Of a stretch of DNA of 64,000 bases, positions 17,698-31,941 are shown piece after piece (within the stretch, counting starts at the first letter, position 1; every line of letters starts with the position of its first letter). The translations under genes and the position numbers were made by a program. Source of the stretch: Achromobacter seleniivolatilans (GTDB lineage Bacteria; Pseudomonadota; Gammaproteobacteria; Burkholderiales; Burkholderiaceae_B); assembly GCF_030864005.1 (NCBI RefSeq), contig NZ_CP132976.1:868001-932000 (forward strand), in the 5' to 3' direction. The notes beneath the pieces are model-generated. The model was not told where the DNA came from. It made no database searches and saw only the letters and a list, made by a program, of their open reading frames with translations.

Positions 17698-17899
17698 GTT
17701 TTGTCTCCTGGTCGTGTCATCACGTTTTGTCTGTTTGACGACACTCTAGGAATTCTCACGCTGCTGAACAACGCGAATTTGCAGAAAAGTTCCGATATGT
17801 GGACGCTTTTGAAACGTCGTCCTGAGCGTGGTCTTGGACCAAAGCCAATTTCTTCGCAGAATTAGGCTAGGCGCTTATTGCGCGCGCGGTTAATCCCAT

Positions 17900-17911
17900 T
17901 GTTGAATGTTC
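17900..17911. promoter_or_regulatory. candidate operator palindrome before the flavin reductase gene
   Basis: TTGAATGTTCAA is a perfect inverted repeat (five-base arms, two-base spacer) in the 243-base divergent region between the solute-receptor operon and the flavin reductase/IclR pair, 29 bases before the flavin reductase ATG. IclR regulators bind short inverted repeats; assigning this site to the IclR protein at 18570 is inference. Confidence 0.35.
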
Positions 17912-17940
17912 AATATCCGGACTACGGAGCCAGACCCACC

Positions 17941-18573
17941 ATGCACTTCCCCGCAAGCGACCTGAACCCCGAACAGACCTACCGCCTGATGAGCGGCATC
18001 GTCGTGCCCCGGCCCATCGCCTGGATCAGCAGCGTCAACGCCCACGGCGGCGTCAACCTGGCGCCATTCAGCTGCTACACCTTCGTCTCAAACAAACCGC
18101 CCATGGTCGGCATAAACATCGGCCGCAAGGCAGGCGAACGCAAAGACACCGCCCGCAACATCCTGGCCAACGGTCATTTCGTGGTGAACATCGGCGACGA
18201 AACCCTGCTCGATCCCCTGCATGAAAGCGCCCACGAACATCCGCCCGAAGTCAGCGAGGCCGACGTGCTGGGTTTAAGCGTGCTTCCCGGCGAAGTAATC
18301 GCAACCCCGCGCCTCGCCGCCGCACCCATCAGCCTGGAATGCCGCTTTCACAGCGTGACGCCATTCGGAGAAACCGGCGCGGAGTTCTTCGTAGGGGAAG
18401 TCGTGATGTTTCACATCCGCGAAGGCCTGCTGCAAGACGGCAAGATCGATACGGAATTGCTGCGGCCCATATGCCGCATCGCCGGCCCGAACTATGCATC
18501 GCTAGGCCCCATCGTCACCAAGCGCGGTATTCAGCAGACCCCAAAATCGGTTCTGAAACCGGAGGCCGCGTGA
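17941..18573 (+). CDS. flavin reductase-family (FMN-binding split barrel) protein
   Basis: The protein has 210 residues; the start is fixed by GGAG 12 bases upstream. The flavin reductase-like domain is visible: YRLMSGIVVPRPIAWISSV, NLAPFSCYTFVSNKPPMVGI, KDTARNIL and FVVNIGDE. Some members are NAD(P)H:FMN reductases feeding monooxygenases; others of this length in catabolic clusters are stand-alone flavoproteins. It overlaps the IclR gene by four bases (GTGA) and is divergent from the operon at 12922-17697. Confidence 0.9.
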   Translation: MHFPASDLNPEQTYRLMSGIVVPRPIAWISSVNAHGGVNLAPFSCYTFVSNKPPMVGINIGRKAGERKDTARNILANGHFVVNIGDETLLDPLHESAHEHPPEVSEADVLGLSVLPGEVIATPRLAAAPISLECRFHSVTPFGETGAEFFVGEVVMFHIREGLLQDGKIDTELLRPICRIAGPNYASLGPIVTKRGIQQTPKSVLKPEAA

Positions 18574-19364
18574 GTGAAGCCGAAGATAAAACCGCATCCG
18601 GCGCGCAAACCGTAAGGCGAGCGCTGGCCCTGCTGCGGCTGATTGCCTGCGGACAGGAGAGGGGCGTGCGGCTGGTGGATTTGGAGCGAATGTCTGGATT
18701 GAACCGGCCTACTGTGCATCGATTATTGAAGACGCTGGTGCAAGAAGGCGCGGTCGAACAGGATCTGGATACGCGGCGGTATTTGATCGGGCAGGAGATT
18801 AGTTTGCTGGGACTCGCCCGGACTCGACGGTTTCCATTACTGACGATGGCAGAGCCTTATATGGCCGAGCTAGCGGAGCAAGTGGGGGACACGGTGTTTT
18901 TGAGTATTCGACATGGGCACGACTCGATTTGTATTGGCAGACGGACGGGAAGGCATCCGATACAGGTGCTGTCGATTGAGGTGGGGGTTAGGAGGCCGCT
19001 TGGAGTTGGCGTGTCGGGCGTGGCGTTGTTGGCGAGTTTGGGAGTGGAGGAAAGTGAGGAGCTGGTGCGGGGGAATGCGGCCAGGTTGGAGGTGATGGGG
19101 GAGCGGGTGGAGGAGGTTATTGCGCGGGTTCAGGTGGCGCGGAGGGAGGGGATTGCGCATGCGCCGATGGGGTTGATGCCGGGGACTAGTGCGGTGGCGG
19201 TGCCGGTGTTGAGTGTGGGAGGGGAGGCGCTTGGGGCGATTACGGTGACGGCGATGGCGGAGAGGTTGGGGGTGGGGAGGTTTGAGATGGTGGTGGAGAG
19301 GATGAAAGGGGCGGCGGGGGGGATTGCGGGGAGGTGGGGAAGGGTTGTGGGGGGTAGAGGGTAA
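18570..19364 (+). CDS. IclR-family transcriptional regulator, GTG start
   Basis: The protein has 264 residues. The GTG at 18570 overlaps the flavin reductase stop. N-terminal winged helix (TVRRALALLRLIACG, LVDLERMSGLNRPTVHRLL) and C-terminal GAF-like effector domain (AEQVGDTVFLSIRHGHDSICI, GISAxPVL-type end: GTSAVAVPVLSVGGEALGAI). It probably controls the divergent catabolic operon. Oddity: from about 18770 the coding strand becomes extremely G-rich and C-poor, with runs of GGG, AGG, GTG and GAG codons, unlike the C-rich start of the same transcript; the protein sequence stays IclR-like throughout. Confidence 0.9.
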   Translation: MSEAEDKTASGAQTVRRALALLRLIACGQERGVRLVDLERMSGLNRPTVHRLLKTLVQEGAVEQDLDTRRYLIGQEISLLGLARTRRFPLLTMAEPYMAELAEQVGDTVFLSIRHGHDSICIGRRTGRHPIQVLSIEVGVRRPLGVGVSGVALLASLGVEESEELVRGNAARLEVMGERVEEVIARVQVARREGIAHAPMGLMPGTSAVAVPVLSVGGEALGAITVTAMAERLGVGRFEMVVERMKGAAGGIAGRWGRVVGGRG

Positions 19365-19452
19365 GTTGGGGGGCAGGTGGGAGTGTTAGATGGTTTGTGA
19401 TTTAGGCCCATGTCGAACGCAGTTGAGGTCGCTTCGGCAAAGAGTAGGACTT

Positions 19453-19477
19453 ATTTACGGTGGTAAATGGGTGTTTT
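19453..19477 (+). terminator. possible weak terminator after the IclR gene
   Basis: ATTTAC/GTAAAT stem with a GGTG loop, followed after a few bases by TTTTT. The stem is AT-rich and separated from the T-run, so this is only a weak candidate. Confidence 0.25.
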
Positions 19478-19505
19478 TGTAGGGCGATAGGTGTGTGTGG
19501 GACCT

Positions 19506-19661
19506 ATGATTACCAGCTCTATACAGCACCTAGGTGTCTCACCAGGGGGACGGCATGTTGAAGGCTTCCTTCAGATTCGACTGGATGCGGCCAAGGATGC
19601 TAATGCATTGCGAGTGATCGCCCTAGAGTTAAGGGCGACTGTGGAGTTGAGACATGATTAA
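19506..19661 (+). CDS. small ORF, 51 residues, unknown
   Basis: An ATG-started frame in the otherwise gene-poor 19.4-20.5 kb stretch. The protein begins MITSSIQHLGVSPGG and is soluble with a charged C-terminal half (IALELRATVELRHD). It ends inside the start of the next small ORF (8-base overlap), suggesting translational coupling. The ribosome-binding site is weak (gggacc). No family was recognised; it may be a real small protein or gene remnant. Confidence 0.4.
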   Translation: MITSSIQHLGVSPGGRHVEGFLQIRLDAAKDANALRVIALELRATVELRHD

Positions 19662-19824
19662 ACGTGATGATTTTTTAGCTTCGGAAATCCGAGAGTTGGA
19701 GCGGATGCTTGAGGCTATTCCCGCATCGTCGGTCATACAGCGGATTTCGATTCAGAATCGACTTAAAACCGTGCGTGAAGCGCTTGAGCGAGAAATCGCA
19801 TCCGCAAAGGCTTCCACTGGATAG
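19654..19824 (+). CDS. small helical protein, 56 residues (possibly a truncated N-terminal domain)
   Basis: The start has GGAG upstream. The sequence MIKRDDFLASEIRELERMLE followed by SVIQRISIQNRLKTVREALE is strongly amphipathic, like a helical hairpin or coiled coil. From memory it resembles the first 55 residues of a longer family of island-borne hypothetical proteins, which then continue with a beta-rich domain. Directly after the TAG, in the same frame, an ATG opens a 17-codon stretch (MTLRGRLTIDGRAIGAE) before another stop, compatible with a decayed continuation. That relation is inference. Confidence 0.45.
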   Translation: MIKRDDFLASEIRELERMLEAIPASSVIQRISIQNRLKTVREALEREIASAKASTG

Positions 19825-20518
19825 ATGACGCTTCGTGGTCGCCTAACCATTGACGGCCGAGCTATCGGCGCCGAATGACACGTGCGGTGGTTGCCTACGG
19901 CCTCGTAGATCGTTGCTGGGTGTGCGGGCAGAGCACACCATCTGCTAGGTGTTGCTTGCCTGAGTTATTGCTGACCTATCCCCGAGCTTATTCCCAAATA
20001 TTCTTATGAACACTGCTTTGTGCGGATCAGCGTTCAACTCTTTATTGGCTAGGAAGCGATCCGAAACTTGGCGGTGCTGAAGCGAAATGGAAACACAGTG
20101 CGAACCTTTCCAGCCCTTCGAAGCGCGAATTCGGCTGCGCCCGACGGCGGATTGCGCTGACTGCAGAAGCAGGAATAGACCATTTTTCGTCGATCTTCCG
20201 TTTCAAACCGGAAGCTAACGTTCACGATAGTCCGCTTCCGGCCAGTAGCAGACCTTGAAACCCTGCCCGCAAATGATTGCTTGAGACTGATTTCGGACTG
20301 CCCATCAGGCAGCCCGGCAACTTGTCGCAGAGCAGTCGTCGGGTGTAGTCACACAGCCGCGTGAGTATTTAGGGGACCAATGGGTGTGCATTGCCTTCCG
20401 CGTATCGCCACGAGCACGCTGGCCTTCATAAGTTGCAAATGAGTATTTTGTTACAGTATTTGGTGATGAAGCACCGACGCAGTGAGCGACGAGGACACCA
20501 GTTTCGGAGGGGAGAAAT
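19825..20518. other. gene-poor stretch upstream of the STAND gene
   Basis: About 690 bases without a supported gene. It contains a degenerate element around 20195-20260 (CTTCCG...CCGGAAGC and GTCCGCTTCCGGCC) that resembles sequences at about 26510 and 27950, and the promoter region of the large gene. TTGCAA at 20433 could be a -35 box but no good -10 box is spaced correctly. GGAGGGGAG just before 20519 is a strong ribosome-binding site. Confidence 0.5.
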
Positions 20519-23500
20519 ATGAGTGAGCAGGAAATGTCTATGGCTGACAGCCACTCCGGGATGAGCACGTTGGCCAGCGGGCCTGCGGGCACTCATTTCG
20601 AGGGCCAAGTCGGTGCGTCATACTTGCTCGCCATGCTTGCCGGGGCACCCGCCCGAGGGCTCCCCGGCGCCTCGATAGACCGAGTCGGGCTACAGCAAGC
20701 CAATGCGGGGCATCCGCTCGACGACGTGATTATCCACGCGCACGAAAACGTATCCGGAAAGCCGGCGGTGCTGGAAGTTCAGGTCAAGAGATCCATCACC
20801 TTTGCTGCCGCCGACCCCGTCTTTCGCAAAGTCGTTGGCCAAGTTGTCAAGGCGTCGCAACGGCCTGACTTCTTGACGCAGCGGTACGAATTGGCGATTG
20901 CGACGACGAAGGGATCGCGCAAGATCGATGGGGCATATCAGGATGTCCTCACGCTCGCGCGGCAGATTGGCGACGCGGCTACATTCTTCGTCCAAATCGA
21001 TCTGGCGGGCGTGGCAAACGACGACATGCGCGCCTTCGTCAAGACGTTCAAAAGCCACCTACGAGACGAAGGCTCGCCTGACGACAACGAGACCGTCTGG
21101 CTGTTGCTGTGTCGGCTGCAGATTCTGACCTTCGACTTTACGGCCTCAGGCTCTGCATCACACGACCTGGCGTTAGAACGCGCTATACGTGTGCTACACA
21201 CGGACGATGGATCGCGCGCTGGGGCCTTCTGGGTCAACCTCATTGAACTAGCAATCGACGTGGCGAAAAGTGGAGGCGACAGAACTCGCGAGACGGCATT
21301 GCAAGCTCTCGCGCAGCTGGGCTATCGGTTCCTAGGTGAACGTCGGCACGCTATGGCCCGAGCAGCGCTAGCCGAGTCGTCCCGCTTGGCACTTGCCGAC
21401 ATTCGCAATTGCGTGGGCAACGTCGTACTTGCACGACAAGCGCGTGTGGCCGCAACGCGCGAAGCGTTGGACCGCGGACGCTTTGTGGAGATCCGTGGTG
21501 ACGCAGGCGTCGGCAAATCGGGGATCTTGCGGCAGATGGCCGAGGCCATGCAAGCCGAAAGTCAGGTCATCGTTCTCAGCCCCGGACGATGTGTTCCCCG
21601 CGGGTGGGCAGCGTTGCGTGCGCAACTCGGTTTCGACGGAACGCTTCGCGAATTGCTTGTCGAACTGGCTAACGATGGTGGCGCCACGATCTTTATCGAC
21701 AACCTCGACTCTTTCAGCACAGAGGAGAGGCCCACGGTAGTCGATGTCGTCAGGGAGGCCTCTGTCGTCCCGGGAATCGCAGTGGTCGTGACGGCCCGGC
21801 GCGAATTTGGGATTGATGAGCCCAACTGGCTCCCGAGCGACGCACTGGCACGCTTGGCGCAACCCGACGCGATCACAATAGATGAGCTGAGCAAGGTGGA
21901 AATTGAGCAGCTGAAGGTGACAGATCCTTCGCTTGGACCCCTGCTAACGGATGGACATCCCGCACGCCAGGTCGCCAGAAACCTTTTTCGCCTCGCACGG
22001 CTGGCAAGTCAGCCAGCATCTGACCCCATACCGCGCACTGAAGTCGATATGGCCGAGCAGTGGTGGACCACTGCGGACGGCACACGCGATGCCGGGTGGC
22101 GAGATCGAATTCGGCTACTGCAAGGCGCGGCAGCGCAGACCATGTCTGGCGCTGACTCCCTCGACGTTACAGGCCAAGCTGCAGCGCCGATCGATGCACT
22201 GGTGTCCAGCGGGACTCTGCGGGATTTGGGTATCGACCAGGTCGCGTTTCGTCATGACGTACTGCGTGAGTGGGCGATTGCTAGCGCCTTGCATGCCGGG
22301 CCCGAACTCGTCAGCAGGCTGCGGCTAGATCGGCCAGCAATGGCGATGTTTGCACGTGGCGTTGAGCTGGCAGCGCGTATGACAATCGAGCGGGCGTCTG
22401 ATGGCGTGAGGTGGCACGCGCTCGTTGATCGGCTGAGCCAAGCGGGAGTTCATCGTTCTTGGCGCCGCGCCGCGTTGCTCGCCCTAGCTCGATCGGAAGC
22501 TGCGGAAACACTTCTCCAACGCGCATCGCCCGAGCTACTCGCCAATGGCTCCGAACTGCTGCGCGAACTCATCCGAACGGTCATGGCAGTCGACGTGCTT
22601 CCGGCCGCGCAGGTCTTTGCGGCTGCGGGAGTCGACCCTGCGCTCATACCCGCATCGATCAACGTCCCGCGTGGCCCGGCATGGAAGACATTGATTGTTT
22701 GGCTCTTAGGTGTCGGAGATAGCGTTCCTAAAGATGCCATCCCAGAGATTGTTCAGCTATACACGAATTTCTCGGTTGGTACACTTGGCGCCTCCAGTAT
22801 CACGCCGTTTACAACACGACAGATCTACCGTTGGCTGAGGTTGGTGGAGCCAATAGATTCAATGACGATACGAAGCGAGGGCCTGAGATCGGACCTCCGC
22901 GAAGCGTTCGTCATGTTCGCGCACACAACGCCAGAGCTAGCCGCTGAATACCTGACGGCAGTGGGAAAGAGCGAGTACAACGAAGACATCGTGCGCAGCA
23001 TCTTGAAGATGCGCGGCGCGCTGGCGCAAGCAGCCCCGGCAGAGCTGGCTAACCTGACTGCGGAGGCGTTGATCGCAAGGCCCCGTCGACGCGAGCGCCA
23101 CTTCGGCCGGGAGCGCGAGGATGCGTTTACATATATCGATCATGAGTTCTTCCCGGCCTCGCCGGCACAAGGCCCATTCCTCGATCTATTGACCAATTCG
23201 CCCAAGAACGGGTTGGCCTTGGTTCATCGCTTGGTCGCACACGCGGTCGCACACAAAAGTCGAGGTGCTGACCCAGGGACGAATGGGTTCGACTTGGCCT
23301 TTCCTGAAGGGACGCGCACCTTCCCGTGGACGCAGACCTACTTCTGGTCACGCAACAGCAACTGCAACGCTGTCACGTCTTCGCTGATGGCCCTCGAAGC
23401 ATGGGCGCACCGCCGCATTGATGCGGGCGAAGCCTTCGAAGATGTGCTGACAGACGTGCTCGGGCCACAATACTCGTGCGCTGCATACTTGCTGGTGGCA

Positions 23501-25669
23501 GTTGATCTCATCATCTCGTATTGGCCCAAATCACTTGATGTGGCGGCAGATTTTCTCGGCTGCCCCGAACTGCTGTGTATCGATTACACGCGTCAGGTTC
23601 ACGATCGCATCGAAATGCCGGACTTCTTCGGGTTTGACTCCTTGCATAGCGAACCGCGCGGCAGCGTGACCGCTGCTGACCTGAAGCGTCGGCCATCCCG
23701 GCGGATAACGCTCGACGGACTGATTGGCAACTTCACGTTCCTGGCATCCCCAGATCAGCTCGCGGCATTGAGGACGCTGCTGACGACCGTAGCAACACGC
23801 CTGGGCGAACCCGCCGCAAGCGCGAATCTGGGCAACCCGGAATTCATGGCTCGGTTCGCATTAAACCTATTGGATGCCGCAAATTGGCAAGAAGTCGAAG
23901 TGACGCTCAGGGACGGATCATCCGCAACTGCGCGCGAATATCGATCGCCAATGGCTGAGCAGACCCATCTACAGGCTTTGCGAGACGCCACGACTGAGCG
24001 AGAGTCAGACTCCGCCACGCGGTCTGCGCTGACCCTTGCGCTCGACGATCCCGCTCGGTTGCTACCAGAAGGCCGGTCGGCAGCGGCGGCTTGGGCGCGG
24101 CGTTCTGCAACGACGACGGAAGAAGTCGAATCCGACGACGATGGCGGAGAGCGGCGAATGCAAGAGGAAGCAATTGTGACGGCCGCGATGATCGTCATGC
24201 GGGACGGCGATGATGACTTGCGCGCTGAGTACGGGGAATGGGCGCGGTCTCAATTGGAAAAGACGCTTGCAGCCCTCGACGAAGGTTTGGCACGCCAGAC
24301 GCGAGGAGGCCTACGCTTCAATCCGACCGCGATCGCCTATGCCGGGTTGATTCACGCCTTGCGACATCGGTCAACGCCGGAAGACGTGCGGTCGCTTCTT
24401 GAGGTAGCGGCGACAGGAAACCACGCTGCCGCGCACGGATTAGGGACGTTCGCGGCAGTCCTAGCGGACGTCGATAGTCGCTTACCGAGAGCTGTGCTCC
24501 GATGTGCATTCAACGCCAGCGTCGTGGAGAGCCGAGCTTGGGATGCGTCGCAGGAAGAGGTCAAGGCTCGAAAAGCGCGCAGTCATGGACGGGCACGGGC
24601 GGCCGTTGCCGCTGAGATGGCATGGCTTGGAGGTGAAGGCCCGGAGCCAACGTGGCCGACATTTCCGGTAGAGCAAGCTCGGTCGAGAATGCAACTACGT
24701 TTACCTGGAGCCAGAATTGCGACACCAGAACCAGCAGAACCACCAGAAGCGTCGGCGCCTTCGCCAACAGAGCATGTAAATCATCAGGCTGCGGCTCTTT
24801 GGTTGCGCCAAGTGCGCACTCTTTCCATAGATGACACGCTTCCTTGGCTCAATGAGCTGGTGAGGGCCTACATGGCTTGGACTGCCCTTGCGAATGGAGC
24901 GAACCTAGACGACGGAGACGAAACGGACCACCCGCCATCTGAGTGGAACGATACCTTCTTTGCGGCGGTTGCACGATGCGTTATCGGTTTGTCAACGCCT
25001 GATGCCACTGAGCTGGTCGTGCGGCACATCGTTGCGCTTCCAGACCGGAATTTCTATGACGTGCTCGTCGATTTTTTGCGCAGCATCGACGTGGTGTATT
25101 TCGAGGGCGACAGTATTCCGACGCAGGTAGCCGTAGACATTCGGAGCACATTCGCCGACCGAATGCTGACCACGCGAGGATGGGAACGTCTCAGCCGAAC
25201 CAGGGACTTTTCTATCGAAATGCACATTGGCCCGGCAATCGCCGTCTTGTTCTTTAACGACTACATGTACGGGCAGGGATCGAAATGCTACCTGCTTGAG
25301 AAGGGCGTGGAGCGAGTGGGCCCGTTTCTCCCTATTCTTGGGAAACTGGTCAGAAAAGGACCGTCACCCTTCGCCGCCATGGTATTACTCAACCTGCTTG
25401 AAGTTACGCCACTAGCCGAGCAACTCGATGTGCTGGTTGAGGCTGGAAGTGTATGGCTTGAGGCATATCCTGATTTCCGACAGCTGTGGATTGATCACGG
25501 TGTGGGCCGCCGTTGGTGCTTGCTCATGGAGGCCATCCAGGCACGCAGCCCGACCAGCTTCAGCAGTAGCGCGCCGCTGCGGCCTGCCATCGACAACCTC
25601 GTCGCATCGCTTATTGCGCTTGGAGTGCCTGAGGCCACACGGTTGGAGGAGGAGCTTAGCAAGCTTTGA
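20519..25669 (+). CDS. giant STAND-type NTPase with N-terminal Mrr/Cap4-like nuclease domain (putative antiviral, Avs-like)
   Basis: The protein has 1716 residues. N-terminal domain (about 20-130): D68/D69 then LEVQVKR (E86, Q88, K90) fits the D...QxK variant of PD-(D/E)xK nucleases seen in Mrr-type enzymes. P-loop ATPase (about 310-560): Walker A GDAGVGKS (327-334), Walker B ATIFIDNLD (D394), then VVVTARR, a STAND/NACHT-like sensor segment. Residues about 600-1716 are long, helical and unassigned, the place where Avs proteins carry their TPR-like target sensor. Inference: a sensor ATPase that unleashes DNA cleavage on phage recognition. A strong ribosome-binding site precedes it, and a HEPN gene follows after 71 bases. 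Other STAND regulators are an alternative. Confidence 0.72.
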   Translation: MSEQEMSMADSHSGMSTLASGPAGTHFEGQVGASYLLAMLAGAPARGLPGASIDRVGLQQANAGHPLDDVIIHAHENVSGKPAVLEVQVKRSITFAAADPVFRKVVGQVVKASQRPDFLTQRYELAIATTKGSRKIDGAYQDVLTLARQIGDAATFFVQIDLAGVANDDMRAFVKTFKSHLRDEGSPDDNETVWLLLCRLQILTFDFTASGSASHDLALERAIRVLHTDDGSRAGAFWVNLIELAIDVAKSGGDRTRETALQALAQLGYRFLGERRHAMARAALAESSRLALADIRNCVGNVVLARQARVAATREALDRGRFVEIRGDAGVGKSGILRQMAEAMQAESQVIVLSPGRCVPRGWAALRAQLGFDGTLRELLVELANDGGATIFIDNLDSFSTEERPTVVDVVREASVVPGIAVVVTARREFGIDEPNWLPSDALARLAQPDAITIDELSKVEIEQLKVTDPSLGPLLTDGHPARQVARNLFRLARLASQPASDPIPRTEVDMAEQWWTTADGTRDAGWRDRIRLLQGAAAQTMSGADSLDVTGQAAAPIDALVSSGTLRDLGIDQVAFRHDVLREWAIASALHAGPELVSRLRLDRPAMAMFARGVELAARMTIERASDGVRWHALVDRLSQAGVHRSWRRAALLALARSEAAETLLQRASPELLANGSELLRELIRTVMAVDVLPAAQVFAAAGVDPALIPASINVPRGPAWKTLIVWLLGVGDSVPKDAIPEIVQLYTNFSVGTLGASSITPFTTRQIYRWLRLVEPIDSMTIRSEGLRSDLREAFVMFAHTTPELAAEYLTAVGKSEYNEDIVRSILKMRGALAQAAPAELANLTAEALIARPRRRERHFGREREDAFTYIDHEFFPASPAQGPFLDLLTNSPKNGLALVHRLVAHAVAHKSRGADPGTNGFDLAFPEGTRTFPWTQTYFWSRNSNCNAVTSSLMALEAWAHRRIDAGEAFEDVLTDVLGPQYSCAAYLLVAVDLIISYWPKSLDVAADFLGCPELLCIDYTRQVHDRIEMPDFFGFDSLHSEPRGSVTAADLKRRPSRRITLDGLIGNFTFLASPDQLAALRTLLTTVATRLGEPAASANLGNPEFMARFALNLLDAANWQEVEVTLRDGSSATAREYRSPMAEQTHLQALRDATTERESDSATRSALTLALDDPARLLPEGRSAAAAWARRSATTTEEVESDDDGGERRMQEEAIVTAAMIVMRDGDDDLRAEYGEWARSQLEKTLAALDEGLARQTRGGLRFNPTAIAYAGLIHALRHRSTPEDVRSLLEVAATGNHAAAHGLGTFAAVLADVDSRLPRAVLRCAFNASVVESRAWDASQEEVKARKARSHGRARAAVAAEMAWLGGEGPEPTWPTFPVEQARSRMQLRLPGARIATPEPAEPPEASAPSPTEHVNHQAAALWLRQVRTLSIDDTLPWLNELVRAYMAWTALANGANLDDGDETDHPPSEWNDTFFAAVARCVIGLSTPDATELVVRHIVALPDRNFYDVLVDFLRSIDVVYFEGDSIPTQVAVDIRSTFADRMLTTRGWERLSRTRDFSIEMHIGPAIAVLFFNDYMYGQGSKCYLLEKGVERVGPFLPILGKLVRKGPSPFAAMVLLNLLEVTPLAEQLDVLVEAGSVWLEAYPDFRQLWIDHGVGRRWCLLMEAIQARSPTSFSSSAPLRPAIDNLVASLIALGVPEATRLEEELSKL

Positions 25670-25740
25670 AGCCAACACTACGCTGCGCGGCTTAGTTCAA
25701 GCGTCCGGCGTCAAAAATTTGTAATTCTGAGATCAATTTT

Positions 25741-26274
25741 ATGTCCTTCGCTCCTTACGCGAATGAGCAAGACAAGCTGGATCGCTACGTCAATGCATTC
25801 GGCACGCAGTCATTCCGAGATCAGGCAGACCGAGACTACGTTGCCGCGCGATTGGCATGTCGCCACGAACTGTTTCCTCAGTTTCTTTGGTCTTCGCATC
25901 AAGCGATAGAGAAGTATCTAAAGGGAATCCTTCTCTATAACCGCATCAAGGCGAATAAGGTGGGTCATGACCTGGCCCAAGCCTTGTCTCTTACACAGTC
26001 CCTGCCCTTCGAGATAGAACTTTCGAAAAGAAGCCACAGGTTCATAGAACACCTTGCAGAGGTGGGCGAGTTTCGATACATCGACGTTCCTTATCATGTG
26101 TACGGACACATACTTGTCGATCTCGACTTGGCTGTTTGGGAGGTTCGCAGATACTGCCAAATCCTACAGACCTTTGGAAAGCCACTTCCGCTCGAGGAGC
26201 AGAAACTTCTTGAAGATGCTTGGTCAGATTTGGCCTCTAGCGACTCCAAGCCGCTCAGCGTTGCTATGGCATAA
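25741..26274 (+). CDS. HEPN-domain protein, C-terminus frameshifted
   Basis: The protein has 177 residues. The HEPN four-helix signature is visible: ARLACRHELFPQFLWSSHQA, IEKYLKGILLYNR and VGHDLAQAL. No clear catalytic Rx4-6H pair stands out, so it may be a non-nuclease HEPN. It ends early in LASSDSKPLSVAMA, while the +1 frame immediately after (26261-26467) continues with a plausible domain end (LLWHNPCFGVRKRATVKVKN, LYLYPEMLDELLKYVFIPKK). This suggests a frameshift or short deletion in a once longer gene. It follows the STAND gene on the same strand and may be its partner. Confidence 0.7.
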   Translation: MSFAPYANEQDKLDRYVNAFGTQSFRDQADRDYVAARLACRHELFPQFLWSSHQAIEKYLKGILLYNRIKANKVGHDLAQALSLTQSLPFEIELSKRSHRFIEHLAEVGEFRYIDVPYHVYGHILVDLDLAVWEVRRYCQILQTFGKPLPLEEQKLLEDAWSDLASSDSKPLSVAMA

Positions 26275-26467
26275 CCCCTGTTTCGGCGTTCGGAAACGAG
26301 CTACGGTGAAGGTAAAGAACCACCTAAATGCTCAGAATTCGCTGCTGTATCTCTATCCCGAGATGCTCGACGAATTGCTCAAGTACGTCTTCATTCCCAA
26401 GAAGCTGGTAGCCGGCTATCGTGAACACTTGTCGGAGATCAAAGCAGGCGCGAAGGCGAGGCCTTAG
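26261..26467 (+). pseudogene. out-of-frame C-terminal remnant of the HEPN gene
   Basis: In the frame one base ahead of the HEPN gene, the conceptual peptide runs LLWHNPCFGVRKRATVKVKN and continues to KAGAKARP before a stop at 26467. Its composition (Lys/Leu/Tyr-rich, amphipathic) is protein-like, and from memory it resembles the C-terminal ends of longer HEPN proteins. There is no start codon or ribosome-binding site suited to independent expression. Programmed frameshifting is possible, but no slippery heptamer is evident. Confidence 0.45.
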
Positions 26468-26777
26468 CTATGTTGGTGCCGCCCGGCCCTTCCATCGAGA
26501 ACCGTTGACCAACGTCCGCTTCGGGTCGAGAGCGGCCAGACACGATTGGCGCCTTTCGACCCAATGCAGTCGTTCGAGCAGCCCCCAGCAGTTTCTGCTG
26601 TGAAGTGATTGCAGTCCATCGCTTTTGCAAGCCGAGGTCACACTAGTTCGCCCTATGCAGTATTTTGGTTTCGCTATTCTTATGATGGTATAAACGGTGC
26701 ACTTCAATTCGGCTCAGGGTGTTTCTGCTGTGTCGCAATTTACCTGCGCCCGTACGGACCAATAGGGAGTATTTGCT
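26468..26777. other. 310-base intergenic stretch with a repeat-like element
   Basis: No supported gene. Around 26508-26590 the sequence AACGTCCGCTTCGGGTCGAG and the following GCGCCTTTCGACCCAATGCA resemble parts of the elements near 20195 and 27930; CGGGTCGA and TCGACCCA can pair. The last 60 bases should hold the promoter of the 26778 operon, with GGGAG as ribosome-binding site. Confidence 0.4.
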
Positions 26778-27071
26778 ATGACATTTATGAAAGGCCTGGA
26801 CGATCTGCAGAGAACTTTAGCGGAAGCGCAGAAAGCGCTTGAGACAGTAAACGGCGAGCTCGGAACCTTGTCCTTTAACCCAGAGGATCCAGAGAGCGTC
26901 GAAGCGGCGATCGCTGAGTCCGAGCGGTTGGTTGACGAGCGACTGGGCAAGTACGCGAACAACTCGATCGTCGGTCCGCTGATAGTTCAGATGAAGGATT
27001 CGTTCAGGACTGCCGTGATCGAGAAGGCAGCCGAGGCGCGGCTGAAGGGAGAAGCGTCAGATGGCGAATAG
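26778..27071 (+). CDS. small acidic helical protein, first gene of a two-gene module
   Basis: The protein has 97 residues with GGGAG upstream. It is almost entirely helical and acidic (FMKGLDDLQRTLAEAQKALE; EDPESVEAAIAESERLVDER), with coiled-coil character over residues 5-50. No cysteine, signal or membrane helix. Its last 11 bases overlap the start of the next gene, so the two products are probably made together and interact. The small-acidic plus larger-partner order recalls antitoxin-toxin or sensor-effector pairs; no family could be named. Confidence 0.75.
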   Translation: MTFMKGLDDLQRTLAEAQKALETVNGELGTLSFNPEDPESVEAAIAESERLVDERLGKYANNSIVGPLIVQMKDSFRTAVIEKAAEARLKGEASDGE

Positions 27072-27849
27072 AGAGGTCCTGTTCAAACGGATCAACAATG
27101 CCCTGTTCGATATGCAGGCGGCAACGTCGCAGACCTTTGAGCAGCACTTCCTGACCTTTGCCCGACTTCTTGCGGATTCGTCACTACAGGATCTGAATCA
27201 AAAGCTAACAGTCAATCTGGATGTGGAACGTTTCTTGGAAGCCAGTTCTAGGTCACAAGGCAGCATGGTGGGTTCCGCTCGTCTCGCATGGCCTGAAAGC
27301 GCGGACGCGGTGCTCGGGCTGCAGTGGCTACTGGTTCAAAAGTTCGCGCGAGAACCGGGAGGGTTGTTAGATTTTGCGCACACTTACTACACTGTGGGGC
27401 GCAACTTCACTGGTGAGCTGCATAGCCTCACACGTCAGTTACTTATCCCGTTTGCCCGCGACTACAAGGACTACGTGATGGCCATGGAGCAATCGCATGT
27501 GGCAGCGTCCGTGAGCAGCGCTGCGGACAGCATCGGAAGCGGCCCAGCACAAATCACTTACCACATCAATGGAAATAACGTTCGCGTCAACAATCACTCA
27601 GTCGACAAATCGACGAATATCATAAACATCGGCGCTGACTTTCGCGAATACATCGACGGCCTACGCCAAGTCATTCAGAGCCTGACTGATGCTCAACAAA
27701 AGCAGGAAGCGATGGAAATTGTCAATGCTGTAGAAGCGCAGCTTGCGACCCCGAAGCCCAGCAAGACGGTGGTATCAACCTTGTTGAATGCATTGCCTCA
27801 CGTGGCAAGCATCGCCACACTAGCATCCGCGATTATCTCCGGGCTCTAA
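27061..27849 (+). CDS. unknown island protein with AbiTii-like C-terminal layout
   Basis: The protein has 262 residues. Residues 1-160 are helical and soluble (FEQHFLTFARLLADSSLQDL; FAREPGGLLDFAHTYYTVGR). A short Asn-rich beta segment follows (ITYHINGNNVRVNNHSVDKS), then a helix ending in QLATPKPSKTVVSTLLNALP and a hydrophobic end (HVASIATLASAIISGL). The Asn-rich linker plus helix plus xPKPSK-hydrophobic tail resembles the C-terminal module of AbiTii and related phage-defence proteins; this is pattern memory, not a search. The hydrophobic tail may contact the membrane. Start overlaps the 26778 gene. Confidence 0.72.
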   Translation: MANREVLFKRINNALFDMQAATSQTFEQHFLTFARLLADSSLQDLNQKLTVNLDVERFLEASSRSQGSMVGSARLAWPESADAVLGLQWLLVQKFAREPGGLLDFAHTYYTVGRNFTGELHSLTRQLLIPFARDYKDYVMAMEQSHVAASVSSAADSIGSGPAQITYHINGNNVRVNNHSVDKSTNIINIGADFREYIDGLRQVIQSLTDAQQKQEAMEIVNAVEAQLATPKPSKTVVSTLLNALPHVASIATLASAIISGL

Positions 27850-28182
27850 TAGATGTCCAAATTGCAGGACTGAGGATTGTTTGACCCGCATTGGTAGCTG
27901 ATGAGCGAGCTTTTGTCCCTCAGATAAGGGCCTCTGCAGACCGACCTTCGCAGGTCGCCGTCCTCCGACCTGCGGGCGGCGACTTCCGACCCGCTGCTGT
28001 CTTTGAAGCCTCGTTAGCCTACGTCGGTAGGCTGCAAAAGCCGGCGCCTATAGACTTCTCTTTCGGTAGTACGCTAAGTTAAATAGCGCCTTTTGAATTA
28101 TCAGTCCGATATCATGTATTTTTTGCAGGCGTTAGGTGCAGTTCGCGCCTCGTCCTAGCTTAAAATTGCCAGGACGGGAACT
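27850..28182. other. intergenic stretch with GC-rich hairpin-forming element
   Basis: 333 bases without a supported gene. GACCTTCGCAGGTC at about 27943 is a hairpin, and a second, GACCTGCGGGCGGCGACTTC, follows. The region shares CTTCCGACC/GCTGCT-type words with the elements near 20200 and 26520. The AT-rich 28070-28180 part is likely the promoter region of the DUF262 gene. Confidence 0.4.
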
Positions 28183-29436
28183 ATGATCCGTCGAGATAAC
28201 ACATACGACGAGTACACAATGAACAATGTCGATGAAGATAACGCCCTAGTTAATTTCGAAGATGACCAGGCGGATGACCTTGACACATCTCTTGCAGTCG
28301 ACCGCTTTCGTGATGCTGTTTTGTACGGTACTGACTGGACGGTGCGGACGCTTCTTCAGCAAATCGAGCAGGGCAACATCGATTTGTCACCTGATTTTCA
28401 ACGCAGGGATGCTTGGAGTTTACGTAACAAGAGCCGCTTTATTGAGTCGGTGGCGCTACAACTGCCCATTCCCCAAATCGTGTTGGCAGAACGCAAGGAA
28501 CAGCGCGGCACATACATCGTTCTTGATGGTAAGCAGCGATTGCTAACCCTTGCGCAGTTCGCTGGCGATTTTCCGGATGACCATCCTTTATGGGATGAAT
28601 CGCGGAAGGTTGCTTCACTTCGACTGTCGGGCCTGCGTGTCCTGACAGATCTGAACGGTAAGACATATAACGACTTCACTTCTTTGCCTGATCTGGCGCA
28701 GATGCGAACGCAGTTTGATAATCACACAATCCGAAGCGCTCTAATTCGAAATTGGCCCGACGAAGACTACTTATATGAAGTATTTATTCGACTAAATACA
28801 GGAAGTGTTCGGTTGTCGCCTCAAGAACTGCGGCAAGCAATGAAGCCGGGCCCTTTCACGGCGTTTCTTTCAATTAAGTCGGCGGAGAGCGTGACGATCC
28901 AAAAAATCCTTGGCTTGTCGGCTCCCGATTTCCGGATGAGGGATGTTGACCTTTTGCTTCGGTTAATTGCATTCAGCACAAGACTTTCTGTATACAGAGG
29001 CAACTTAAAACAGTTTCTCGATGAAACACATGAATTCTACAACGCAAACTGGGGCGTGGAGCAGAAAGGAATGGAGGGCTTGCTCAAACGCCTCGAAGAT
29101 GGCCTTATTTTTCTATGTGCCGCCTTCGGCAATGAGAGACATGTCGGCCGAAGATATAAGGGAGACAATTTTGAGAGTCCGCTGAACAGAGCCGTCCTTG
29201 ACGTACAGATCGCTTCAGCACTCGATGAGAATGTAAGACGCGCGGTAGAGGAAGGTCGATTGGACCTGTTAGGAACCTTCCAAAAAATGTCTATTAATGA
29301 TCAGGAATTTGCGCAGGCGGTAGCGGGAACCACCAAATCCATTACAGCCATTCGCACTCGTTATAACAGTTGGCGGGCCGCATTAGAAGGCGTCATTGGC
29401 CAACCAGTTCAAATGCCTGAGCTGCCAAATGGCTAG
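28183..29436 (+). CDS. DUF262 (GmrSD N-terminal/ParB-like) protein
   Basis: The protein has 417 residues; a start at the later ATG 28219 is possible. DUF262 hallmarks: LSPDFQRRDAWSLRNKSRFI, then LPIPQIVLAE and the DGxQR motif LDGKQRLLTL (D115, R119), which in ParB-like/DUF262 proteins belongs to the nucleotide-binding or hydrolysing site. Unlike GmrSD there is no C-terminal DUF1524 HNH nuclease; the C-terminal half is helical. The next gene overlaps by eight bases and encodes an Rx4H HEPN nuclease, so the pair probably works as sensor or NTPase plus RNase. Its base composition is visibly AT-richer than flanking chromosome. Confidence 0.85.
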   Translation: MIRRDNTYDEYTMNNVDEDNALVNFEDDQADDLDTSLAVDRFRDAVLYGTDWTVRTLLQQIEQGNIDLSPDFQRRDAWSLRNKSRFIESVALQLPIPQIVLAERKEQRGTYIVLDGKQRLLTLAQFAGDFPDDHPLWDESRKVASLRLSGLRVLTDLNGKTYNDFTSLPDLAQMRTQFDNHTIRSALIRNWPDEDYLYEVFIRLNTGSVRLSPQELRQAMKPGPFTAFLSIKSAESVTIQKILGLSAPDFRMRDVDLLLRLIAFSTRLSVYRGNLKQFLDETHEFYNANWGVEQKGMEGLLKRLEDGLIFLCAAFGNERHVGRRYKGDNFESPLNRAVLDVQIASALDENVRRAVEEGRLDLLGTFQKMSINDQEFAQAVAGTTKSITAIRTRYNSWRAALEGVIGQPVQMPELPNG

Positions 29437-30196
29437 CAGTCATTTCATAAAGCTGACGACCTCCATTCAAACGTTGAAGAACATCTACCTTGATGATGCG
29501 TTGGCCTCACCAGTTCCAAATGACGTTCACTCGGAACTAGCGCGTGCATTTGTAACATTCGCCCACGCGGAGTTCGAATATTACGTCGAAGAAGCGTTGC
29601 GAGAACTTACGCATGCAGCATTTAACGGTGCGATTTCCGGGAACTTTGGGAGCGCATCTATCGCGATGCTTGCCTTTAGTGGCATGAGTTCTCTAAAAGC
29701 GGGCGACAAACTCGGGGCCGGTGGGAAAAAGCCTGCCCGTAAGCTGTCTACTCGATTCGGAGATGCAAAGTTGGCCATTTTAAAAGGCCTTGATGCAAAT
29801 ATGGGGGTCCGGGAGAAACATATCGCTGCCATGGCGATACCCCTAGGATTAGATGCGGCATCTGTTGACAATACTTGGCTGAACGATCTTGACGCCTTTT
29901 GCTCGTATCGAGGCGCCTATGTTCACATGTCGAGGACGCAACAACGAGCTGACCCGGCTGCCGTCAACCCAAATGACATGTGGCTGAAGTGTAAACGTCT
30001 GGTTTGGACAGATCCGACACTAGGAAGTCCAGGATCAATCAACTCTTTCGAAAGTTTTGACGCTTGGGTCCAGTCAGAAAAAACTGGCTTAGCGCCACTA
30101 GTCGGAGCTCCTCGTTGGAGACTACGCATCATGACTTACCTTCTTCAACTGTTATCGCGTAGGAAGCAAAATGCGGCTGGCGAAGATGATGACTAG
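29429..30196 (+). CDS. HEPN-like RNase (MAE_28990/MAE_18760 type)
   Basis: The protein has 255 residues from the ATG at 29429, inside the end of the DUF262 gene (ATGGCTAG overlap). The N-terminal helical part FVTFAHAEFEYYVEEALREL and the later FCSYRGAYVHMS hold the HEPN ribonuclease signature R161-x4-H166. The family is recognised as HEPN-like nucleases commonly encoded next to DUF262 proteins. Inference: cleavage of RNA on infection, held in check or activated by the DUF262 partner. The gene is AT-rich and ends just before a reverse-strand hypothetical gene. Confidence 0.82.
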   Translation: MASSHFIKLTTSIQTLKNIYLDDALASPVPNDVHSELARAFVTFAHAEFEYYVEEALRELTHAAFNGAISGNFGSASIAMLAFSGMSSLKAGDKLGAGGKKPARKLSTRFGDAKLAILKGLDANMGVREKHIAAMAIPLGLDAASVDNTWLNDLDAFCSYRGAYVHMSRTQQRADPAAVNPNDMWLKCKRLVWTDPTLGSPGSINSFESFDAWVQSEKTGLAPLVGAPRWRLRIMTYLLQLLSRRKQNAAGEDDD

Positions 30197-30326
30197 CCCA
30201 CTCTCCACGCATGGCCTCGATGCCCGCCGGTATCCTGTAGTTAGTCAAGAAGATGCGTTGGCCGACTGCTATTGGCCGTAAGCAGACTTGAGAACAGTGG
30301 ATCCTATGTTTGCACGCACAGTTTCC

Positions 30327-30638
30327 CTACTGAGCGACATTGACTGCTTTTGCCAATACGGAGTCCAACGTTGGATCATTTATGGTGCGTCCCACTAGAT
30401 CCGCAATCTGATCGCAGATGCTCTCAACGCCACCCATCAAATTCGAAACCACCCAAGCATTCAACGGTATCGTCCCCGTAGCCTCAAGCTCACCCACACC
30501 ACTCCCCACAATCCTAGCAATAGCCCAAATCCCCCCGCAAGCCCGCTCAATCTTCCGCAAATCATCAACCCGAACAATACCAAACTCCGGATCATCCGGG
30601 GTGGCCCAACGGTCATAGGTAAAAGGGTGGTCGCTCAT
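30327..30638 (-). CDS. small hypothetical protein
   Basis: The protein has 103 residues; the start at 30638 has CGGAG upstream, whereas the frame extends to 30722 without one. Sequence includes RKIERACGGIWAIARIVGSG and LNAWVVSNLMGGVESICDQI, which look like short amphipathic helices similar in style to DUF3077-type proteins of pseudomonads; no firm assignment. It points against the island genes and may mark the right edge of the island. Confidence 0.6.
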   Translation of the reverse strand: MSDHPFTYDRWATPDDPEFGIVRVDDLRKIERACGGIWAIARIVGSGVGELEATGTIPLNAWVVSNLMGGVESICDQIADLVGRTINDPTLDSVLAKAVNVAQ

Positions 30639-30729
30639 CTCGACGCTCCGGTGTAATTGACGCAATGAAAGAAAGGAGGCCGCCATTGCAGCGGCCGCTT
30701 GTTCTGTCTTTCCGGCTGTCAACCCGGGC

Positions 30730-30827
30730 GATCCTTCGGATCACGGGGCGAGTATGCCCCGTTAGGCGACGGAGGCAATGCGGCTCCGTGCCAAATTGAT
30801 CACGCTCTCTCTAACGGAAGCGTGATC
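30730..30827. terminator. cluster of GC-rich inverted repeats downstream of the methyltransferase gene
   Basis: Three stems in 100 bases: GATCC-TTC-GGATC (30730-30742), ACGGGGC/GCCCCGT with a six-base loop (30743-30762), and GATCACGCT/AGCGTGATC with a 12-base loop (30798-30827). They lie after the minus-strand methyltransferase gene and before the start of the 30638 gene. No T-run follows, so they may be Rho-assisted termination or a regulatory element. Confidence 0.35.
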
Positions 30828-30912
30828 GCGGACTATTAATACTGAAAAGCGTCAGTAGCCCACCACCAGCCGAAGCTACCCGTTGCTTCAGACCAATTAG
30901 CCAAGCAGCGAC

Positions 30913-31773
30913 CTATTCAGCCGCCACCACAGCTTTCGGCACAAAAAACCTATCCTTCAACTCCTGCAACCCAATCCGATCCAGCATCTCGGTCAATCGT
31001 TCAGCAGGCTTCCTCGTCGGCAAATTCTTAAACTGCGCAATGATCAGCTCATTCTTCATAGAATGCTCCCAGCCGACCAGCTCCGTGACACTAACCTGAT
31101 ACCCATGCGCTTCCAGCTGCAAACACCGCAGCACATTAGTAATCTGGCTTCCAAACTCCCGCGTATGCAGCGGATGCCGCCAAATCTCCGCCAGCGGATC
31201 AGCCAGCGCCTTGCCCTTATTCTTCCGCAACACCGACGCCACCTCAGCCTGACAGCAAGGCACAACCACGATGTACTTGGCCTTCTTCTCCAGCGCAAAG
31301 TGAATCGCGTCGTCGGTGGCGGTGTTGCAAGCGTGCAGGGCGGTCACTACGTCGATCGTTGCGGGCAGACGATCTGAAGTAATCGAATCCGCCACTGACA
31401 GATTCAAGAACGACATCCCCTCAAACCCGAGCCGCGTCGCCAGTTCCTCTGACGACTTGACGAGTTCCTCGCGCGTCTCGATCCCATAAATATGGGACCC
31501 GCTCTTCACGGCATCCTTTTGTTCCTTGAAGAACAAGTCATACAGGATGAATCCCAGATAAGACTTCCCAGCCCCGTGATCCGCGAGGGTGACTGCGCCG
31601 CGTTCTTGTTGAACGTCTTTCAGCAGCGGCTCGATGAATTGGAACAGGTGATAGACCTGCTTCAATTTACGGCGGCTGTCCTGGTTCATCTTGCCGTCGC
31701 GGGTGAGGATGTGCAGGGCTTTTAGCAGTTCGACGGACTGGCCGGGGCGGATGTCGTGGGTTTTTTCGGACAT
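30913..31773 (-). CDS. class I SAM-dependent methyltransferase (Methyltransf_32-like)
   Basis: The protein has 286 residues; homology starts at MSEKTHDIRPGQ (31773), and the extension to 31935 lies in the repeat-rich intergenic region. SAM-binding loop LADHGAGKSYLGFILY, then GIETREELV and LNLSVADSI, then the motif-IV region TALHACNTATDDAIHFAL and VVVPCCQAEVA. The HACNTATDDAI...PCC arrangement is that of the METTL25/GSTCD-like group. Target (RNA or protein) unknown; cytoplasmic. Confidence 0.85.
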   Translation of the reverse strand: MSEKTHDIRPGQSVELLKALHILTRDGKMNQDSRRKLKQVYHLFQFIEPLLKDVQQERGAVTLADHGAGKSYLGFILYDLFFKEQKDAVKSGSHIYGIETREELVKSSEELATRLGFEGMSFLNLSVADSITSDRLPATIDVVTALHACNTATDDAIHFALEKKAKYIVVVPCCQAEVASVLRKNKGKALADPLAEIWRHPLHTREFGSQITNVLRCLQLEAHGYQVSVTELVGWEHSMKNELIIAQFKNLPTRKPAERLTEMLDRIGLQELKDRFFVPKAVVAAE

Positions 31774-31855
31774 GGGGAAGGCAAAGCGCCCCGCGCGGGG
31801 CGGGGCGCGTAGAGGCGCGGAAAGCGTCAGTTTAACGAAAACAGCGGATTGGCCA

Positions 31856-31919
31856 GGTTGGCCGGACTTCGAGCTGCTTCGATATGCCCGGGTTGGCCGC
31901 ACTTCGAGCTGCCTCGATA
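31856..31919. repeat. 29-base imperfect direct repeat
   Basis: Copies at 31856-31884 and 31891-31919 share GGTTGGCCG-ACTTCGAGCTG and the following CTCGATA-like end with two mismatches, spaced 35 bases start to start. They lie in the intergenic region before the methyltransferase gene (minus strand). Confidence 0.8.
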
Positions 31920-31941
31920 CATATAGCGAGGACAACGCGGA

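Follow-up and report, generated by a model that had tools for sequence, protein, structure and literature searches.

Exchangeable hotspot cargo in Achromobacter seleniivolatilans with four putative anti-phage units, one of them a sibling of a two-gene pair on the F plasmid

What is carried by the 11 kb that separate two conserved chromosomal blocks of Achromobacter seleniivolatilans, and can its unfamiliar proteins be assigned to defence against phages? The stretch analysed here, the window, comprises 64,000 nucleotides of NZ_CP132976.1 (868,001-932,000 of the forward strand; window position 1 is its first letter). A sequence-only reading had placed an accessory island with defence-like modules at 19365-30720, leaving without explanation the C-terminal 1100 residues of a giant protein and a pair of genes starting at 26778 and 27061. 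We consider it probable that 19353 to about 30343 is the exchangeable cargo of a hotspot and consists of four units, each likely anti-phage: an Avs4-like giant, a lone HEPN protein (hepn1), the pair p97/p262 and a DUF262/HEPN pair. Mechanisms can be proposed for the giant and the two pairs; the roles are likely ones suggested by sequence comparison, and the structures are predicted. The chances are about even that p97 and the N-terminal domain of p262 represent the unchanging half of bacterial immune receptors that make up a large and so far unrecognised family, with recombination exchanging the occupant of the effector slot: a TIR domain, a Schlafen/AlbA_2 domain, a PDC-S32-type end or a helical tail; one member would then reside on F, and the window would show an effector swap at sequence resolution.

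The accessory nature of the island follows from its absence at the same site in relatives. Each flank was used to search 43 genomes of the genus, our own included. The left flank (17878-19364) was strongly matched (E 1e-121 or better) in 19 other genomes, and the right flank, represented by at least its 340-amino-acid gene, in 41 of the 42 others. The two flanks lie less than 25 kb apart in 13 of these, all of which were compared with the window; in the remainder they fall on separate contigs, the left flank is missing or weak, or, in one genome (G012), they are about 290 kb apart. With matches accepted at E up to 1e-5 and those under 60 bp dropped, the 13 sites follow the window as far as 19335-19373 at the left edge; at the right edge the match resumes no earlier than 30292 (between 30292 and 30410 in the six closest relatives). 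Nothing between 19374 and 30291 was matched over 60 bp or more at any of these sites, which marks the island as accessory beyond chance, and not as a core set shared by relatives. The right edge proposed earlier moves inwards: the minus-strand gene 30327-30722, matched at least partly in 10 of the 13 sites, belongs to the flank, given where the relatives' match begins. The interval between the flanks ranges from 1.7 to 23.9 kb, the shortest sites (G015 and G032) being near-empty, with two and three open reading frames of at least 90 amino acids. Cargo exchange through homology of the flanks is compatible with these observations. Searches of the window returned neither a tRNA nor an Rfam match at gathering score, and no integrase was recognised by eye among the island frames, for which no integrase model was run. 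All island genes lie on the plus strand (20519-25669, 25741-26274, 26778-27071, 27061-27849, 28183-29436 and 29429-30196), as had been read, apart from a shifted start of the last. Their description as AT-richer is apt for most (GC 0.488-0.560, against 0.611 for the rest of the window) and hardly so for the giant (0.599).

Much of the cargo sampled at the other sites of this hotspot matches known or candidate defence models. We picked 20 proteins by eye from 109 mechanically called frames of at least 90 amino acids in 10 of the 13 sites; 16 of them, spread over 8 of the 10 sites, match PADLOC models at E 1e-5 or better, a rate that is not an estimate of enrichment because the proteins were chosen by eye. 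Among the matches are DRT8 and a DUF262 protein (G013), Hachiman HamAB and Septu PtuA (G016), an AriA-like ATPase (G034), bSEFIR with PDC-M65AB (G035) or PDC-S06 (G024), LmuB and PDC-M01A (G038), PDC-S06 and PDC-S60 (G028) and an Old/GajA-like ATPase (G022). The single protein from G018, both from G036 and one of three from G038 found no model at this threshold. The sample left aside G015, G032 and G020, the genes of the last resembling, by eye, ordinary metabolism and iron uptake.

The pair p97/p262 turns out to have siblings on plasmids. The gene for p97 (26778-27071, plus strand, 97 amino acids) is overlapped at its end by the frame of p262 (27061-27849, 262 amino acids). Relatives of p97 occur in 981 of 72,556 plasmid records, 429 of them conjugative, and 13 such regions were viewed, chosen for variety among the 40 matches listed. 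In 11, p97 is adjoined by an intact gene of about 295-300 codons, residues ~7-146 of whose product match the N-domain of p262 (35-45% identity, E 3e-23 to 2e-39); in one the N-domain is in two pieces, and in one a Tn3-family transposase gene directly follows p97. At its far end the plasmid protein carries a TIR domain of the CAP12/Pycsar kind; four of these proteins were scanned, with PF10137 matches at E 3.7e-37 to 1.1e-40. These proteins match the PADLOC model PDC-S35 and, in the PDB, CD-NTase-associated protein 12 and PycTIR; their alignment took in 14 sequences. One pair lies on the F plasmid of E. coli K-12 (NZ_CP011496), between ppl, annotated as anti-phage, and a P-loop gene beside pifC that we take to be pifA. 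The pair is present at 80% coverage or more in 261 of 5426 complete E. coli genomes. As in the window, a p97 relative (40%) stands directly upstream on F and the N-domain (38%) occupies the same end of the second protein; the difference is at the C-terminus, a TIR domain there and a helical tail here, and p262 has no Pfam TIR match at E up to 1, PF10137 included. The label PDC-S35 suggests a single-gene candidate (S), and a PADLOC scan at E up to 1 gave no model for the p97 of F. Among the matches listed from open-licence literature we found no description of the F pair or of the function of PDC-S35 or PDC-M14, which does not imply absence from print. Closer to the window copy is the PADLOC candidate PDC-M14B, matched weakly by p262 itself (E 1.6e-8, 32 bits) and over nearly the whole length by its relative P0198; no PDC-M14A model was matched among the seven window proteins scanned. 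The pair had been described as unlike any system that could be named; it is a TIR-less sibling of the plasmid pair with a PDC-M14B match.

The two parts of p262 have separate histories. The N-domain (residues 1-150, 27061-27510), a predicted all-helical sensor or adaptor, is followed by a linker (residues 152-191, 27514-27633; predicted confidence, pLDDT, under 50) and a tail of four predicted helices (residues 164-262, 27550-27849) whose last segment is hydrophobic, with a peak of 1.65. The window N-domain is 95% identical to that of a Cupriavidus protein (P0122), and the tails of the same two proteins 47%. Against the other full-length p262-type proteins compared the tail is 37-51% identical, except for one (P0121) at 94%, and it is 76-88% identical to tails of the compared 194-amino-acid proteins, such as P0205, which show no N-domain. 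The DNA match of the window to three other loci (L074, L075 and L079) stops at 27612-27613, within the linker, which places the exchange of tails near 27612. Order- and class-level searches found the N-domain also behind a Schlafen/AlbA_2 domain (L102; PF04326, 3.1e-14) and ahead of a PDC-S32-type end (L062, 1.3e-33; L063, 1.1e-29), the gene in L063 overlapping a PglX/type IIG-like gene; no p97 relative adjoined any of these genes in the short flanks examined. An M-x-G-S motif, with P-x-x-R-D near the end of the N-domain, is common to all eight members aligned. The tail in turn stands behind several other front ends (L059, L061). In L061 (79-2229) the gene of a tail-bearing protein of 246 amino acids is succeeded, after about 40 bp, by an AAA-type ATPase gene, possibly a second two-gene system with the same tail. 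One sensor with several effectors and one tail with several front ends is the pattern expected of combinatorial immune receptors, and such a function is what we infer here. The earlier term AbiTii-like is partly justified for the tail, which is shared with 194-amino-acid proteins, one bearing the UniRef name "AbiTii domain-containing protein"; of the three scanned, none had an AbiTii match in Pfam at E up to 1, and we do not retain the name.

The pair moves as a unit. A locus of Bordetella genomosp. 5 (L073) has only 26554-27859 in common with the window (95% over 1306 bp), and this stretch is therefore taken as the unit of transfer. Among 152 relatives of p262 at E up to 0.001, eight were placed in loci of named genomes (Bordetella genomosp. 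5, Hydrogenophaga, Chitinimonas and five uncultured bacteria), and in all eight a p97 relative (72-96%) lies directly upstream. The p262 gene is intact in four, runs off the contig end in one and is shortened or broken in three; the window's giant, hepn1 and DUF262 genes were found in none, within the 5-17 kb examined per locus. In broader sampling, p262 or a part of it is present in 7 of 399 genomes of an order-level sample and 3 of 369 of a class-level sample, and p97 in 2 of the 399, our own genome counted each time. The identities of p97 and of the N-domain rise together across 17 loci (Spearman 0.88, not corrected for kinship). In three of the eight loci the module stands upstream of Gabija-type genes: in L074 and L076 gajA and gajB relatives follow on the same strand, about 350 and 13 bases behind p262, and L077 has a gajA relative of 501 amino acids. 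The best models of the former two differ (PDLC00093/PDLC00135 and PDLC00067/PDLC00132), and L077 shares the gajA group of L074, so that the linkage amounts to at most two independent associations. Five other neighbouring proteins were scanned; that of L075, the Hydrogenophaga intermedia locus, matches PDC-M68A and endonuclease effector models and the other four match nothing. The neighbour in L079 is a purL-type enzyme. Sequence searches of the PDB gave nothing for p262 (E up to 5) and, for p97, weak matches to unrelated helical proteins only (best E 0.098). The N-domain had no match in the phage records searched, and p262 pattern matches among viral_contigs were not confirmed by tblastn. All 88 p97 relatives listed (P0241-P0328) carry the precomputed Pfam tag PF27363.

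The second segment to receive an explanation is the C-terminus of the giant (20519-25669, plus strand, 1716 amino acids), an Avs4-like AVAST protein by its predicted architecture: a QxK nuclease, a STAND nucleoside triphosphatase at ~300-590 and a sensor at 590-1716. The nuclease and STAND assignments of the sequence-only reading agree with the motifs, D68/D69, E86, Q88 and K90 of the former and G332, K333, S334 and D394 of the latter being invariant in 24 aligned sequences, the window's included. Avs4 (AVAST type 4; PDB 8dgf) has the same order of nuclease, STAND and solenoid, and the predicted sensor has its fold, 957 residues aligning between positions 1 and 1125 of the model; residues 638-1030 of the giant also show a weak sequence match. 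The giant differs from Avs4 in its low identity (11-13% in the fold alignments), in its score of 28.6 bits with NCBIfam NF041815, far below the equivalog cut-off of 1500, and in belonging to a separate clade: at least 739 relatives reach E 0.001 or better, and the clade is found in 82 of 5426 complete E. coli genomes. Avs4 recognises the phage portal, and for that reason the portal is the most likely among the conserved phage proteins that the C-terminal solenoid of the giant would bind; the STAND domain would then assemble, the N-terminal nuclease would cut DNA and the infection would abort. Fold and motifs come from the model and the alignment, and the trigger and DNA cutting would follow by analogy. 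Pattern matches of the giant among viral_contigs were not confirmed by tblastn. In this widespread clade, pattern recognition of the same kind may be available through a second sensor that has diverged.

The DUF262/HEPN pair had been recognised as such, and the domain matches agree. The first protein (28183-29436, plus strand, 417 amino acids) has a GmrSD_N domain (PF03235, 7.5e-26) with a DGKQR motif, and its gene's stop is overlapped by that of a RiboL-PSP-HEPN protein (29429-30196, plus strand, 255 amino acids) with an RX4H motif, RGAYVH (PF18735, 1.1e-8, scanned from 29396), whose start we set at the ATG at 29429 instead of the TTG at 29396. PD-T4-2 has a like combination, DUF262 and PF18735 both being given among its domains (PMC10952713); its deletion in the native strain is reported to have greatly increased T4 plating (PMC9519451). 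For the window's DUF262 protein NsnA is the better-scoring model (1e-61, against 1.2e-32 for PD-T4-2_A), and its HEPN partner, scanned as 29396-30196, matched no PADLOC model. Nothing relevant to NsnA was found among the best 10 of 153 literature matches, and the PDB sequence search gave nothing for the DUF262 protein. By analogy with PD-T4-2 and GmrSD, the DUF262 protein would act as a sensor of phage DNA dependent on nucleoside triphosphates, and the HEPN protein as an RNase. A like pair is present at the same hotspot in G013 (DUF262 protein 1.5e-64 to NsnA; HEPN 1.5e-13).

For p97/p262, the N-domain together with p97 would be likely to sense infection and the C-terminal slot to hold an exchangeable effector. 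Sensing and keeping are assigned to p97 and the N-domain because they are what the TIR version and the tail version have in common and because their identities rise together; the C-terminal part is assigned the effector role because elsewhere that slot is filled by a TIR domain, whose predicted action in F and its plasmid relatives is to destroy NAD+. In the window the slot holds a helical tail brought in from another protein family, and this tail is most likely the effector, with p97 as the keeper holding it inactive. That the tail, with its predicted hydrophobic end, would act on the membrane is the favoured guess, and still a somewhat doubtful one. The distribution of the RX6H motif weighs against it: the motif is present in 66 of 79 tail-type N-domains and in 0 of 15 TIR-type ones, with H121 in 78 and R125 in all 79 of the former, so that the tail-type N-domain may be catalytic. 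We regard it as rather unlikely that p262 is a HEPN-type RNase whose N-domain cuts RNA, with the tail docking or assembling and p97 a classical antitoxin. The fold search gave p262 no reliable relative; HEPN toxins topped the VIA list, but no more clearly than the noise expected among helical bundles, and comparing profiles with those of the window's two HEPN proteins was unsuccessful. The overlapping genes, the small one first, and the spread on plasmids would suit an addiction module, a toxin and antitoxin of plasmids or islands with no specific anti-phage role. The position on F beside an anti-phage gene, the loci upstream of Gabija-type genes and the defence hotspot around the window copy speak against addiction, which we consider unlikely. 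Through its F relative the pair can be studied in the laboratory strains that are known best, and, if p97 and the N-domain are a shared sensor with exchangeable effectors, identifying what triggers the F version would bear on the others, those upstream of Gabija-type genes included.

For the giant, the serious contender, somewhat short of an even chance, is that its Avs4-like solenoid answers another trigger, for instance another packaging or structural protein. The low NCBIfam score points that way, as do Avs5 systems, which seem responsive to several distinct triggers (PMC12931631); the fold match, which covers almost the whole sensor, argues against it. At the scale of the island, the metabolic look of the G020 cargo and the four scanned proteins without a PADLOC match would suit genes that are passengers in an insertion-tolerant region, under no selection as defence. 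The two best plasmid relatives of the DUF262 protein, both distant, have no annotated HEPN neighbour in the stretch examined, which makes that pairing weaker outside the window and G013. Defence models matched at eight of the ten sampled sites, and the recurrence of a DUF262/HEPN pair at the same site in G013, make mere passage quite improbable, and we keep to exchangeable cargo with likely anti-phage functions, in which the two formerly unexplained segments are now testable proteins.

The remaining unit, hepn1 (25741-26274, plus strand, 177 amino acids), lies between the giant and p97. It has the HEPN domain expected of it (PF05168, 4.1e-8), with RX6H at residues 112-119, and resembles HEPN-MNT toxin-antitoxin systems in both features; it differs from them in having no adjoining MNT nucleotidyltransferase gene. 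Among its plasmid relatives the best match is a HEPN gene standing alone amid phage-type genes in Rahnella; the remaining 11 records are from Yersinia. We considered hepn1 as a partner of the giant and rejected it, since neither of the two full-length relatives (L065 and L066) has it within 1.5 kb. A 62-amino-acid open stretch in another frame behind it (26279-26467) looks like the end of a lost gene.

By eye, the left flank (17878-19352; 80-88% DNA identity in the 13 genomes) consists of a reductase-type gene and an IclR-type regulator, and the right flank (30327-31935, minus strand) of the small gene and a methyltransferase-like gene of 340 amino acids. At 19001-20000 the GC skew is 0.40 and greatly exceeds that elsewhere in the window; the plus strand has very little C where the IclR-type gene ends. 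The gene-poor 1.1 kb upstream of the giant contains a 56-amino-acid frame (19655-19825), perhaps a remnant of earlier cargo. In one relative (G028:C1:205612-218611, L053) the IclR side of the left flank occurs twice, about 12 kb apart.

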